In this document: positions 3,441 through 35,018 of the stretch, one piece after another
Layout: the number at the start of each line of letters is the position of its first letter
Position numbering within the stretch: position 1 is the first letter of the stretch
Source of the DNA: Bernardetiaceae bacterium
GTDB taxonomy: Bacteria > Bacteroidota > Bacteroidia > Cytophagales > Bernardetiaceae
DNA: 35,470 nucleotides
Assembly (NCBI GenBank): GCA_020832465.1
Contig: JAFIER010000225.1
Location: 1-35,470 of the forward strand
Direction of reading: 5' to 3'
Notes under the pieces: generated by a model
What the model was told of the DNA's origin: nothing
Databases searched by the model: none
What the model saw: only the letters and a program-made list of their open reading frames with translations
Made by a program: the position numbers and the translations under genes

Positions 3441-3664
3441 AATAAATTCGGGTGTACGACAACTTTGCTAAATTAGCACCGAAATAACATTTCTGTCAGC
3501 AATGTTATTTCTAAAAATTTGACATCTAATATCTTTACTGCCTGTAGTAGGAAGCTCCAGCTTCGTTATAAGCCACTTCCGAAGCTGGGCTACAGCTTTA
3601 AAAACGGTGAAGGCTGAAACTCACCTAAGTTGATTTACCAACTTGACGTACACCCATAAATTCC
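3441..3664. repeat. Large inverted-repeat element (family B) with nested palindrome
   Basis: The left arm (about 3441-3479, containing GGGTGTACGACAACTTTG) is an imperfect inverted copy of the right arm (about 3622-3664, containing CCAACTTGACGTACACCC). Between the arms lie a family-A palindrome (3481-3511) and an internal hairpin (about 3553-3598, CCAGCTTCG pairing with CGAAGCTGG). No coding potential is visible. A related right arm occurs at about 25885-25924. It could be a decayed miniature element or a repetitive extragenic palindrome. Confidence 0.5.
3481..3511. repeat. Stand-alone AATAACATT palindrome
   Basis: GAAATAACATT (3481-3491) and AATGTTATTTC (3501-3511) form a perfect 11-bp inverted repeat. 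It is the same module as the second hairpin of the family-A elements, here without their terminal repeats and lodged inside the family-B inverted repeat. Confidence 0.6.
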
Positions 3665-13599: not shown

Positions 13600-13838
13600 T
13601 TTTTTTTGTTATCTTTCGTCTGTATTCATACTACTATACATTTTTCCATAGCGTCGTTATGGAAAAATAGGCTTAGAAACAACACATCTTAAAGAAATGT
13701 TATTTCTATATGGAGAAGGTATAGTAGCATGGTCTGTATTACAAACTGCCCTTGAGTTTAGGCTCAGATGGGCGTAAGTAAGCATTGCGAATTAACAAAT
13801 ATTTATTTAATGACAACAAAATAACAAACTTTTTACTC
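13600..13838. other. Intergenic stretch with mobile element and target duplication
   Basis: 239 bp. The two copies of GTCTGTATT (13618-13626 and 13732-13740) flank the element at 13627-13731. The remaining 98 bp before the phosphodiesterase ATG is AT-rich with no recognised promoter box. Confidence 0.7.
13627..13731 (+). mobile_element. Non-coding mobile element (family A), 105 bp, with 9-bp target-site duplication
   Basis: The left terminal repeat CATACTACTATACATT (13627-13642) matches the inverted right end (13716-13731) at 14 of 16 positions. Directly outside both ends is the identical 9-mer GTCTGTATT, a target-site duplication. Inside are a TTTTTCCATA/TATGGAAAAA hairpin and a partly decayed AATAACA/TGTTATT palindrome. 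No reading frame is present; it must have been mobilised in trans. Confidence 0.9.
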
Positions 13839-17719: not shown

Positions 17720-19009
17720 ATGTCAGATAAAGCAAAAACTGCTAAACTTATTTATGACGGTAAAGAGTATGAGCTTCCAGTAGTAGAAGGCTCTGAAAAT
17801 GAACTCGGTATCGATATCAGTAATCTACGTGCTGAGAGCGGTCTTATTACCTTAGACCCAGGATTCAAAAATACAGGTTCTACGACAAGTAGTATCACCT
17901 TTTTAGACGGTGAAGAGGGTATATTGCGGTATCGTGGCTATCCTATTGAACAATTGGCAGAGCAGGCATCTTTCTTAGAAGTTTCTTATTTGCTTATTTA
18001 TGGAGAGCTACCAGACAAAGCAACCTTAGAAAAGTTTGAAAATGATATTACAAGACACACCATGCTGCACGAGGATATGCGCAAAATTTTTGACGGATTC
18101 CCCGCTACAGCACACCCTATGGGCGTTTTAGGTTCGCTTATGGCTGCACTTAGTACATTCTACCCACGCGCTTGGGATCCAGACCGCACTGACGAAGAGG
18201 TATATCTTACCATTATACGGCTTATTGCCAAAATGCCTACTATAGCAGCTTGGTCATTTAAAAACGAACTCGGACACCCGCTCAATTACCCTGACAATAA
18301 GCTCGACTACTGTTCACGCTTCTTGAAAATGATGTTCTCCGTGCCTGCGGAAGAGTATGAAGTAGATCCCGTACTTGTAAGTGCACTAAACAAATTACTT
18401 ATTTTGCACGCTGATCACGAACAAAACTGCTCGACTTCGACAGTGCGTATCGTAGGGTCTTCACTTGCTAATATTTACTCTGCATTAGCCTCAGCTATCA
18501 ATGCTTTGGGCGGTCCTTTGCATGGTGGTGCAAATCAAGCAGTTATAGAAATGCTCGAAGAAATTCATGAAAAAGGTATTTCTATGGAAGAGTTTGTTGA
18601 ACGCGTTAAAAATAAAGAAATGCGCTTGATGGGATTCGGGCACAGAGTGTACAAAAACCACGACCCAAGAGCCACTATACTTCGCAAAAGCTGCGACGAG
18701 GTGCTTCAAAAACTCAATCGCAAAGATCCGCTCCTCGATATCGCTAAAAAGCTCGAGCAGGTGGCGCTCAGCGATGAGTATTTTATCGAGAAAAAATTAT
18801 ATCCTAACGTAGATTTCTACTCTGGCATTATCTATCGCGCATTAGAACTACCTACGGATATGTTTACCGTTATGTTTGCTATGGGACGACTCCCCGGCTG
18901 GATTGCACAATGGAAAGAAATGCTCGAAATGAAACAACCTATTGGCAGACCCCGCCAAATCTATACAGGCGAAACTGCAAGAGATTATGTACCTTTTGAT
19001 AAACGATAA
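17720..19009 (+). CDS. gltA: Citrate synthase
   Basis: 429 residues, the length of the bacterial type II enzyme. It condenses acetyl-CoA and oxaloacetate to citrate in the TCA cycle, in the cytoplasm. The catalytic triad is visible: H268 (GGPLHGGANQAV), H308 (GFGHRVYKNHDPRA) and D365 (NVDFYSGIIYRAL). The N-terminal extension (KLIYDGKEYELPVVEG) matches the E. coli-type domain. A mobile element with a 9-bp duplication sits directly after the stop codon, between it and the gene's intrinsic terminator. Confidence 0.97.
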   Translation: MSDKAKTAKLIYDGKEYELPVVEGSENELGIDISNLRAESGLITLDPGFKNTGSTTSSITFLDGEEGILRYRGYPIEQLAEQASFLEVSYLLIYGELPDKATLEKFENDITRHTMLHEDMRKIFDGFPATAHPMGVLGSLMAALSTFYPRAWDPDRTDEEVYLTIIRLIAKMPTIAAWSFKNELGHPLNYPDNKLDYCSRFLKMMFSVPAEEYEVDPVLVSALNKLLILHADHEQNCSTSTVRIVGSSLANIYSALASAINALGGPLHGGANQAVIEMLEEIHEKGISMEEFVERVKNKEMRLMGFGHRVYKNHDPRATILRKSCDEVLQKLNRKDPLLDIAKKLEQVALSDEYFIEKKLYPNVDFYSGIIYRALELPTDMFTVMFAMGRLPGWIAQWKEMLEMKQPIGRPRQIYTGETARDYVPFDKR

Positions 19010-19019
19010 TATACACCAT

Positions 19020-19149
19020 CATACCACTATACATTACATTTTTCCATAGCGTGGGGGTTGCAAACCCCACGGCCTATGGAAAAATGGAGCTTAGAAATAA
19101 CATTTCTCTGAAACAGGTTATTTCTGACCCCCGAATGTCTAATAGTATG
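19020..19149 (+). mobile_element. Non-coding mobile element (family A), 130 bp, with 9-bp target-site duplication
   Basis: The left end CATACCACTATACATT (19020-19035) and the right end AATGTCTAATAGTATG (19134-19149) are inverted repeats, 13 of 16 identical. The 9-mer ATACACCAT flanks both ends exactly (19011-19019 and 19150-19158). Inside are a long hairpin (TTTTTCCATA, GTGGGG arms with their complements) and a partial AAATAACATTTCT/AGGTTATTTCT palindrome. The left duplication begins two bases after the gltA stop codon. Confidence 0.92.
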
Positions 19150-19187
19150 ATACACCATAAACAGGTTACATGATTTAGAAATTTACC

Positions 19188-20740: not shown

Positions 20741-21076
20741 GTATTGCCCACGATGAATTGAAACATTTACCATAGCACTATAAATTTTTTCATAGCGTGT
20801 GGACTGCAACCCCCACGCTATGGAAAAATGGACTTAAAAATAACATTTCTCAGAGAAGTGTTATTTCTGAGAAAAACGTATTTTCTGGCTTGTGTATCTA
20901 TAAAAATATATGTATTGCGAATCACGAATCTATTTAAATTGACTATCTGACTAAAAAAACAGCAAAATACAAGACAAATTTCAACTTTATGATGTTTAGT
21001 CTTTAGCTGTAATATCAAGGCTATTGCATTAGAAAATATTTCATCACGTAATAACTTATCACGACTCTATATATTT
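20741..21076. other. Intergenic region with a degenerate family-A element
   Basis: 336 bp. The left third is the element at 20771-20870. The rest (20871-21076) is AT-rich, with no gene, and should hold the TamB promoter. No perfect -7 box was recognised. Confidence 0.6.
20771..20870 (+). mobile_element. Family-A element lacking a clear right end
   Basis: The left end CATAGCACTATAAATT resembles the terminal repeat. The first hairpin (CATAGCGTGTGG with CCCCACGCTATG) and the AAATAACATTTCT/AGTGTTATTT palindrome are well kept. No right terminal repeat or target duplication could be found. It starts 30 bp after the DUF4403 stop codon. Confidence 0.6.
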
Positions 21077-25684: not shown

Positions 25685-25997
25685 AAAAAATAAATGACTC
25701 CTTTGCCTTTACACTTTTTTGGTCTAAGATTTCTCAATGAAATGCCTTATAGTCTAATAAAAATTATTATTTTGCGGTAGCATCGTTTAGCAAATACCAA
25801 TGTACTACTTATACATTTTCAATAAGGCGGAATTTGCAAGCCCCAAGCGAATAGAACGAACAGTTTTCAAAAAACTGTTCGCTCTGAAATTACCTAAGGC
25901 GATTGATCAACTTGGCGTACACACAAGTGTATAGTGGTATGAGCAGTATCAAAAAAATATAATTTAATCATAGCATCACTCAAAACAAGATAGTTTT
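25685..25997. other. Intergenic region with mosaic repeat
   Basis: 313 bp without a gene. The repeat at 25801-25940 occupies the middle. The flanking AT-rich parts show no clear terminator or promoter. Confidence 0.6.
25801..25940. repeat. Mosaic element: family-A-like ends around a family-B arm
   Basis: The ends TACTACTTATACATT and AAGTGTATAGTGGTATG resemble the inverted ends of family A. Inside is a perfect hairpin (CGAACAGTTTT/AAAACTGTTCG, about 25857-25881). The sequence from about 25885 to 25924 (GAAATTACCTAAGG, CAACTTGGCGTACAC) matches the right arm of the family-B repeat at 3622-3655. No target duplication was found. Confidence 0.5.
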
Positions 25998-28242: not shown

Positions 28243-28253
28243 ACAACCCCATT

Positions 28254-28377
28254 CACACTACTATACATTCGGCGGACAGAAATAACATGTCTCTGATACA
28301 CGGTATTTCTAAGCTCATTTTTCCATAGCCTCTGGGAGGTGCACCCCCCACGCTATGGAAAAATGTATTATGGTATG
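28254..28377 (-). mobile_element. Non-coding mobile element (family A), 124 bp, inverted, with 9-bp target-site duplication
   Basis: The ends CACACTACTATACATT (28254-28269) and AATGTATTATGGTATG (28362-28377) are inverted repeats. The 9-mer AACCCCATT is repeated exactly on both sides. Internal order is reversed compared with the other copies: the AAATAACATGTCT palindrome comes first and the TTTTTCCATAGC/GCTATGGAAAAA hairpin second. It has no reading frame. Confidence 0.92.
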
Positions 28378-28408
28378 AACCCCATTGAAAAACAAAAACA
28401 ATACGGCT

Positions 28409-29215: not shown

Positions 29216-29256
29216 TTTTAGAAATAACATTTCTGGCAGAAATGTTATTTCTAAAA
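29216..29256. repeat. Perfect 19-bp inverted repeat, AATAACAT module
   Basis: The arms at 29216-29234 and 29238-29256 are perfect reverse complements with a 3-base centre (GGC). It is the second hairpin of the family-A elements occurring alone. It lies 25 bp after a stop codon and could work as a terminator because its ends are A/T-rich. Confidence 0.8.
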
Positions 29257-31946: not shown

Positions 31947-32338
31947 TGATTTAAAGTTTCTGTTATTAAAGTACAAATAGGGTAAAAGCCCCCCAATTTA
32001 CAAAAATTATAGTACGAAAATAAAAAAATCTAAGCCAAATTGGCAAACCAAATTAGGTAGTTTCAGCAATAACAGTTTGGCTAGTGCTAATACTTGACAA
32101 TTTAATATTTCCGCGCCTGTAATAACAAGACTACAGCTTATTAAAAGCCTGCTGACTGCACTGCGAAAACTATTAGCACTTGATACTTATTTTAGTAATG
32201 GCTATACTACTATACATTTTTGCATACGTGGGGTTTGCCAACCCCGCGCTATGCAAAAATGGGCTTAGCAATAACGGGTCTCAAAGAAATGTTATCTCTG
32301 GCTAGCGAATGTATAGTAGTATGAGCAGCAATATGTAA
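31947..32338. other. Intergenic region with mobile element and dispersed repeat
   Basis: 392 bp. The left half holds the upstream region of the Ldh-family gene. TGCTGACTGCACTGC at 32150-32164 recurs inverted at 33957-33971. The family-A element fills 32203-32323. No gene is seen. Confidence 0.6.
32203..32323 (+). mobile_element. Non-coding mobile element (family A), 121 bp
   Basis: The inner 15 bases of the ends are perfect inverted repeats (ATACTACTATACATT at 32204-32218 and its complement at 32308-32322). The hairpin is TTTTTGCATA with TATGCAAAAA, a C-to-G change matched on both arms compared with other copies. A decayed palindrome follows. No clear target duplication was found. It ends 15 bp from the lpxH stop codon. 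Confidence 0.8.
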
Positions 32339-33720: not shown

Positions 33721-33780
33721 TTTAGAAATAACATTTCTGGCAGAAATGTTATTTCTGGATAGATAATGTCTCGTAGTATT
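33721..33780 (+). mobile_element. Degenerate family-A element that interrupts the adenine methylase fragment
   Basis: The perfect palindrome AGAAATAACATTTCT/AGAAATGTTATTTCT (33724-33738 and 33742-33756) is followed by AATGTCTCGTAGTATT (33765-33780), which matches the right terminal repeat at 13 of 16 positions. The left end is not recognisable. ATCGTAGGT just right of the end (33781-33789) has an 8-of-9 match, ATCATAGGT, at 33694-33702, a possible decayed target duplication. Confidence 0.5.
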
Positions 33781-33971: not shown

Positions 33972-34164
33972 GAAGTTTAATAACTCAAGCGTAAATTTTT
34001 AGAAATAATATTTCTGGCGGGAAAAAGCCAATGGCACAAAAGAAGACCTCCCTGACAAAATAGCAAGGGGTAGCAAATCAGACGGCACAGCAATTATTTA
34101 CGGTTAGGATGCCTCTACGCCGTTGTCGGTGTCCACACAGCCAATCGAGAGATATGATGCCTCC

Positions 34165-34415
34165 CTCTTTGTCAGAATCAAGATTCACAGGATTGCTTTA
34201 ATCCTGAAAATCCTTGAATCCTGCGAATCCTGATTCAGATAATAAGAAATTGTTTACAACGCTTGCAAGCGATTTTCAAGCCATTGTTTTTTTGAAATTT
34301 ATACGCCGTTAGGCGTTATATATCCGTAAAAAGCCTAACGCACATTTTGTATAGGGGTATATGTAGGATATTCCATTTAGCTATCAATATATAGTGCCTA
34401 AAGGCAAAAAGCACG
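34165..34415 (+). repeat. Tandem repeat unit 1 (about 250 bp)
   Basis: The unit begins CTCTTTGTCAGAATCAAGATT, runs through short degenerate AATCCTG-like repeats, then the sequence ATACGCCGTTAGGCGTT and an 8-bp hairpin (CGTTAGGC/GCCTAACG, 34307-34314 and 34333-34340). It ends in a conserved tract including TAGTGCCTAAAGGCA. Confidence 0.8.
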
Positions 34416-34729
34416 CTCTTTGTCAGAATCAAGATTTTCAAGATTTTGGGATTTACTTGATTGCTTTAATCCTGCAAATCCTTTAATCCTGCGAATCCTG
34501 ATTCAGACAATAAGAAATTATTTACAACGCTTGCAAGAGATTTTCAAGCCATTGTTTTTTGAAATTTATACGCCGTTAGGCGTTGTATATGGGTAGCAAC
34601 GAAGGGGAAAACCACATAAAATACGCCGTTAGGCGTTATATATTCGTAAAAAGCCTAACGAACATTTTGTATAAGGTAGGATATTCCATTTAGCTATCAA
34701 TATATAGTGCCTAAAGGCACAAAAGCACG
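34416..34729 (+). repeat. Tandem repeat unit 2 (314 bp)
   Basis: Near-identical to unit 1 but with an extra tract AAGATTTTGGGATTTACTTG near its start, and with an internal duplication of TACGCCGTTAGGCGTT (34569-34584 and 34622-34637). Confidence 0.8.
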
Positions 34730-34918
34730 CTCTTTGTCAGAATCAAGATTTTCAAGATTTTGGGATTTACTTGATTGCTTTAATCCTGCAAATCTTTGAA
34801 TCCCAAAAAAAGCGTCCCACTCCCCCCCACCTCTTTGACAGTCGCAGACCTCAAAGACGGCTGAAGAGAATCCTGCAAATCTTTGAATCCTCAAAAATTC
34901 TAATTCAGACAAAAAAGA
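34730..34918 (+). repeat. Tandem repeat unit 3, truncated and interrupted
   Basis: It starts like unit 2, but the sequence AATCCTGCAAATCTTTGAATCC occurs twice (34782-34803 and 34869-34890), bracketing an unrelated 65-bp insert rich in C (34804-34868) with CTTTGACAGTCG and ACCTCAAAGACGG. The unit then ends at ATTCAGAC, without the CGCCGTTAGGCG part. Confidence 0.7.
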
Positions 34919-35018
34919 TTTGTGTATTTAGCCCGTGAGGTTGCTTGTGAGATACAAGTAGCGGCGCAGAATCATTGCAGTTCTTTTTTTACACCTAAAC
35001 TTATCCCCTAAAAATAGC

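Follow-up and report, generated by a model that had tools for sequence, protein, structure and literature searches.

Copies in the window and across the host genome

The window, a stretch of 35,470 nucleotides that forms bases 1-35470 of contig C206 of the host genome (G000), contains short repeats whose two ends are inverted copies of one 16-bp sequence, and the question raised by this locus is whether these repeats are transposons and, if so, which enzyme moves them. Three of them had been described in the initial annotation as copies of a non-coding miniature inverted-repeat transposable element (MITE), each flanked by a different, exact 9-bp direct repeat; the coordinates and sequences of all three were reproduced (Table 1), and no meaningful reading frame is present in any copy. 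A fourth end-paired copy (32203-32323) and the decayed copies near 20771, 25941 and 33780 were absent from that description, as were the two conserved internal stem-loops, the insertion sequence (IS) partner and the palindrome common to other repeats that are described below. Copy 2 begins 10 bp downstream of a gene with its stop codon at 19009, and copy 3 is oriented in reverse to the consensus. With up to three mismatches, the 16-bp end has 11 matches in the window versus 0.36 expected, a number reached by none of the shuffles.

Table 1. Coordinates of MITE copies, hairpins and related repeats (window positions, except for the last row, which lies in other sequences)
Feature	Position	Strand	Description
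MITE copy 1	13627-13731 (105 bp); with target duplications 13618..13740	+	9-bp GTCTGTATT at 13618-13626 and 13732-13740
MITE copy 2	19020-19149 (130 bp); with duplications 19011..19158	+	ATACACCAT at 19011-19019 and 19150-19158
Hairpin A of copy 2	19037..19086	+	CATTTTTCCATAGCG..TATGGAAAAATG
Hairpin B (33-bp core palindrome) of copy 2	19093..19125	+	equivalents at 13675-13707 and 28278-28310
MITE copy 3	28254-28377 (124 bp); with duplications 28245..28386	-	AACCCCATT at 28245-28253 and 28378-28386
MITE copy 4	32203..32323 (121 bp)	+	both ends present, with 1 and 0 mismatches; duplication not recognisable
Decayed MITE	20771..20870	+	lacks the right end; retains the left end (with 3 mismatches) and the two hairpins
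Decayed MITE with altered interior, right end	25926..25941	-	
MITE remnant	33724..33780	+	core palindrome 33724-33756, right end 33765-33780; left end lost
33-bp palindrome of hairpin B outside any MITE	29220..29252	.	symmetric arms AATTTT/AAAATT
MITE family M3 copy	3450-3655 (206 bp); with duplications 3442..3663	+	GGGTGTACGACAA..TTGACGTACACCC; 8-bp ATAAATTC; hairpin B palindrome at 3480-3512
Third MITE family copies	L035 19232-19322; L031 and others		L031 copy on minus strand

A search of the 4.60-Mb host genome with the 16-bp ends, as the initial annotation had proposed, was run at up to two mismatches and gave 495 matches (252 + 243) versus 9 (4 + 5) for the reversed control. Pairs of ends were surveyed in a 0.99-Mb sample of the host genome (the window and sequences L031-L090) that is biased to hit-rich contigs; it contains 85 end pairs of 69-178 bp, which corresponds to approximately 214 paired copies genome-wide when scaled from the share of ends sampled. 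Flanking 9-mers with zero to two mismatches border 60 of the 85 pairs and are exact in 30 of these 60. Of 67 tight pairs, 25 are flanked by exact repeats of 9 bp and one by exact repeats of 8 bp, and none by exact repeats of any other length from 5 to 13 bp. Widespread copies lacking 9-bp duplications would have spoken against transposition according to the initial annotation, and such duplications proved to be common across the genome.

None of the 60 duplication-bearing pairs is located inside an open reading frame of at least 100 amino acids, and such reading frames constitute 78% of the sequence. The target is two-fold symmetric, roughly T6-RT(N5)AY-A6: six T-rich bases, R T...A Y within the nine that are duplicated, and then A-rich bases. 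The score of the target arms is 6.96 versus 3.90 for intergenic DNA, a difference of about ten standard errors (sd of the mean 0.29). Positions within 50 bp of stop codons are occupied by 41% of elements versus 21%, an enrichment of only about two-fold, and an insertion bias by gene orientation was ruled out, with 20 of 36 being random.

The initial annotation had also named, as an observation that would count against mobility, orthologous sites that are always occupied in related strains. One insertion, a 93-bp copy (GTGGGAGCT/GTGGGAGGT) at L054 14885-14977, sits within a dispersed repeat of which six other copies (L058, L047, L039, L082, L040, L073) are uninterrupted and have a single target, and are thus empty paralogous sites. 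This dispersed repeat (L054 14840-15025), which was used as the empty-site control, has an internal CCCACGATTTTAATCGTGGGAGC palindrome of its own. The median nearest-neighbour identity among MITE copies is 85%, which indicates that most copies are old, and a few pairs are 99% identical, which indicates that some moves were recent. Exact matches to the 16-mer occur in viral contigs, never more than one per contig, and no plasmid match was found. The repeats are short and non-coding, with terminal inverted repeats, a constant 9-bp duplication, empty sites and a candidate autonomous partner with like ends, and the interpretation of the family as a MITE is borne out by the end pairs, the duplications, the symmetric target preference, the empty sites and the approximately 200 dispersed copies.

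Anatomy and folding of the MITE

The MITE is approximately 85-135 bp long with 16-bp inverted ends CATACTACTATACATT, and inside each full copy are two stem-loops, called hairpin A (TTTTTGCATAGCGTGGGGTTTGCAAACCCCACGCTATGCAAAAAT) and hairpin B (AGAAATAACATTTCT-nnn-AGAAATGTTATTTCT). In the 122-bp form, the order is end, hairpin A, GGGCTTAG, hairpin B, GGCTAGCG, end, and the single-strand fold of this form has three stems at -67.5 kcal/mol (z -13.5). Across 36 copies, the stem pair cells are standard in 90% of cases versus 35-48% if the partner is slid. Changes on both sides of a stem affect 14 pairs (7.6 in shuffles) and 31 cells (12.5 in shuffles), the clearest being a change from C-G to G-C in stem A (16 versus 10 sequences); relatedness or palindrome repair by template switching also raises such counts, so that they indicate stems that are maintained without thereby giving the cause. 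A search of Rfam with the MITE returned zero matches. A role as a terminator was ruled out: hairpin A has T5 before it and A5 after it, the reverse of an intrinsic terminator.

The candidate transposase and its relationship to the MITE

Host transposase genes were sought in the families PF01609 and PF01797. Three PF01609 genes were found, of which one, on contig C277, is within a 1,224-bp element that has the 17-bp sequence CATACTACTAGACAAAA at both ends and is the single intact IS of its type in the host. The element begins one base past the stop codon of a 409-aa gene (presumably patatin-like, judged by eye) and stops exactly at the end of the contig, and for this reason its own duplication is unreadable; the right flank is expected to be ATAGCTAAT. 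The encoded protein of 384 aa matches Pfam DDE_Tnp_1 (E 5.5e-22) and NCBIfam transpos_IS4_2 (E 1.1e-43, with a score of 149.7 versus a cut-off of 152). The IS4 family is defined by D(60-110)D(100-150)E and Y(2)R(3)E(6)K motifs and by a duplication of about one helix turn (PMC2266710), and the C277 protein has D-63-D-108-E and a full Y2R3E6K signature (Y271, R274, E278, K285). A sequence search of the PDB gave no match, and a scan of genome contigs with this transposase gave one distant match. The first 10 bases of the MITE and IS ends are identical, as are 13 of 16 bases overall, and the interiors have nothing clear in common. For the unseen transposase acting in trans that the initial annotation had postulated, the host genome thus offers a candidate with matching ends.

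Homologues of the C277 IS elsewhere in the order have exact 9-bp duplications. The sibling genus has a decayed homologue with the ends CATACTGCTAGACA/TGTCTAGTAGTATG, and a 44%-identical homologue in genome G086 has the end CATACTACTGGACATTC at 88 bp from the transposase match. L095 was rejected as an intact autonomous element; the transposase found there is that of a different IS (ends TGTACTGTACCCTAC), which lies inserted next to a remnant end. The homologue at L183 1377-2580 has an 18-bp perfect inverted repeat GACTACTCTACCGGAAGA that is overlapped by a palindromic 9-bp duplication GTCGTAGAC, which suggests site-specific insertion.

The MITE and the IS are joined in a hybrid on contig C194, which consists of GGTTTGGAT, a complete MITE, the last 31 bp of the C277 IS and GGTTTGGAT again, the 9-bp flanks being exact. 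This is the product expected from one move that used the left end of the MITE and the right end of the IS. Alternatively, the MITE could have inserted into the IS, after which the stretch between the two near-identical direct CATACTACTA left ends was deleted; as the product would be identical, the hybrid is strong but not conclusive evidence. A second pairing of an IS with a MITE is found in the sibling genus, where a 1,208-bp IS with ends TACAGTACTGGACATG (L176/L177) and a MITE with ends TAGAGTACTGGACATG (L108, L111; G007) both have exact 9-bp duplications.

The repeats are real non-coding transposons and are very probably moved by an IS4-type transposase of the host genome. The mobility signature, the target preference, the empty sites, the matching IS ends and one MITE/IS hybrid are directly seen. 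The DDE transposase of an IS4-family element would bind the end sequence that is common to IS and MITE, insert the MITE by cut-and-paste at AT-rich intergenic sites, and cut the target strands 9 bp apart, so that repair would produce the 9-bp duplication. The likeliest candidate for this role is the 384-aa protein encoded by the one intact C277 IS, or a recent relative of that protein, and the probability of this reading is estimated from the sequences at roughly four in five. It is predicted that the C277 transposase acts on the ends of the MITE, and presumably it is still active. One genome would thereby supply the MITE, its probable transposase, the target preference and natural empty sites, which makes mobilization in trans directly testable.

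The host search covered PF01609 and PF01797, so another transposase with MITE-like ends is possible. An improbable alternative is that another IS4-lineage transposase, now lost or diverged, amplified the MITE and that the C277 IS merely shares the ancestral ends. This would account for the three differences in 16 end positions, for the age of most MITE copies, for the survival of a single intact IS copy and for the sibling genomes that have the MITE shell, often without a close transposase; however, the C277 IS is intact with matching 17-bp ends, it is the C277 IS itself that is joined to the MITE in the hybrid, and the few nearly identical MITE pairs point to some recent moves. It is very improbable that recombination rather than transposition spread the repeats as a dispersed structured RNA or regulatory element. 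That reading would explain the strong folding, the excess of paired stem changes, the intergenic location and the modest enrichment near stop codons, but the duplications and empty sites largely refute it; the symmetric target and the IS-matched ends are likewise hallmarks of transposition, and the random orientation to genes, the lack of an Rfam match and the reversed terminator-like flanks of hairpin A also speak against it.

Comparison with known systems

The IS231-derived MIC elements of Bacillus cereus, like the MITE described here, are non-autonomous and have IS4-family ends; they are larger cassettes that may carry genes, and belong to the IS231 subgroup. The family in the window appears from its ends and its candidate partner to be a new IS4-family MITE that is closest to the subgroup IS4Sa, of which the members are 1150-1750 bp long, have ends of the form CA------T and duplicate 8-10 bp (PMC2266710). 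The C277 IS would fit IS4Sa by its size (1,224 bp), end signature (CATACTACT), full YREK, DDE spacing and duplication length, the last being 9 bp as borrowed from the hybrid, the MITEs and the homologues. The IS10 subgroup, of which the ends begin with CT (PMC2266710), does not fit, those of the C277 IS beginning with CA. Other prokaryotic MITEs (Correia/NEMIS, RUP, ERIC, QMITE2) are likewise short, non-coding, AT-rich and intergenic, with inverted ends, direct repeats, stem-loop interiors and related IS that move them in trans (PMC10969869, PMC2229807). The present family differs from them in having IS4-type ends with 9-bp duplications, in belonging to a Bacteroidota lineage, and in the wholesale replacement of interior stem-loops between lineages while the ends are unchanged; in the review text on MITEs that was searched, neither IS4 nor "Bacteroid-" is named (PMC10969869, PMC2229807).

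Possible exchange of hairpins between MITE shells

The end-shell of the MITE with its 9-bp duplications is also present in the sibling genus and in other families of the order, namely in G054 (L202), G141 (L207, L208, L210, L211) and G154 (L215), and the interiors of these shells are unrelated between genera. Once the ends are trimmed off, 13 of 15 interiors (including one from a second family, TAGAGTACTGG) fold with z of -3 or lower, versus none of five ordinary stretches. In two more lineages, the evidence that the shell had captured dispersed host palindromes was mixed: partly positive in G006 and negative in G054. A tentative account, for which the odds are somewhat under even, is an order-wide shell in which IS4-type ends are kept and the interiors are repeatedly swapped for unrelated, lineage-specific stem-loops, which would be either modules required for transposition or protection, or hitchhiking palindromes that spread between MITE families. 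This modularity of the hairpins is the part that would surprise a specialist.

Hairpin B has 626 copies (up to three mismatches) in the host genome and none in the sibling genus. It is a double hairpin, AGAAAT-AAC-ATTTCT nnn AGAAAT-GTT-ATTTCT, of which the two small loops are complementary. In the sample it occurs inside this MITE, inside two other MITE families with 8-bp duplications, and bare. One of these families, M3, is mostly 102-208 bp long; its copy in the window contains an additional inserted palindrome, GAAGCTCCAGCTTCG. The other (GGTAGTGTATAAC..TTTAAGACTACC) is 91 bp long and highly uniform; 22 of its 37 pairs have exact 8-bp duplications, and it contains a AGAACTAACAGTTCT variant of the palindrome. 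The recurrence of the same ends with unrelated hairpins, together with one palindrome in three MITE families, raises the testable question of whether the hairpins are cargo or belong to the machinery of transposition.

Bare copies of hairpin B may have originated as an independent small palindrome, as MITE debris or by convergent selection. They often tip locus-specific arms (AGCAGCCCTC, AAACGCTTC, AAGATATA; for example at L073 10602, L072 676 and L038 8334), and 31% of them are extended by at least six perfectly paired bases, versus 2.4% with shuffled flanks. These figures, the high copy number confined to the host in the comparison with the sibling genus, and the sharing of the palindrome by three families that differ in their ends and duplication lengths would suit a small palindrome, mobile in its own right or hitchhiking, that inserts into hairpin loops, the MITEs being merely carriers. 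This is doubtful, however: a search for empty sites of bare palindromes yielded none that was convincing; some of the arms (AATTTT) are recurrent, as in a subfamily rather than at independent sites; symmetric arms can also be obtained without mobility, by template-switch correction of imperfect palindromes; and hairpin B could be a fragment of a MITE, an origin that has been reported for REP-like QMITE2 fragments (PMC10969869).

As high-copy intergenic palindromes, bare copies of hairpin B resemble those of REP/RAYT systems, from which they differ in that hairpin B also occurs inside MITEs that generate target duplications. Three Y1_Tnp genes of the Y1 type (IS200/REP-associated) are present in the host on contigs C51, C208 and C105 (L199-L201), and their products are possible candidates for moving bare palindromes. 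Palindromes (ATACGCCGTTAGGCGT) are found at 34156-34926 of the window, along with direct repeats of AATCCTGAAAATCCTTGAATCCTG-type units spaced approximately 250-320 bp apart.
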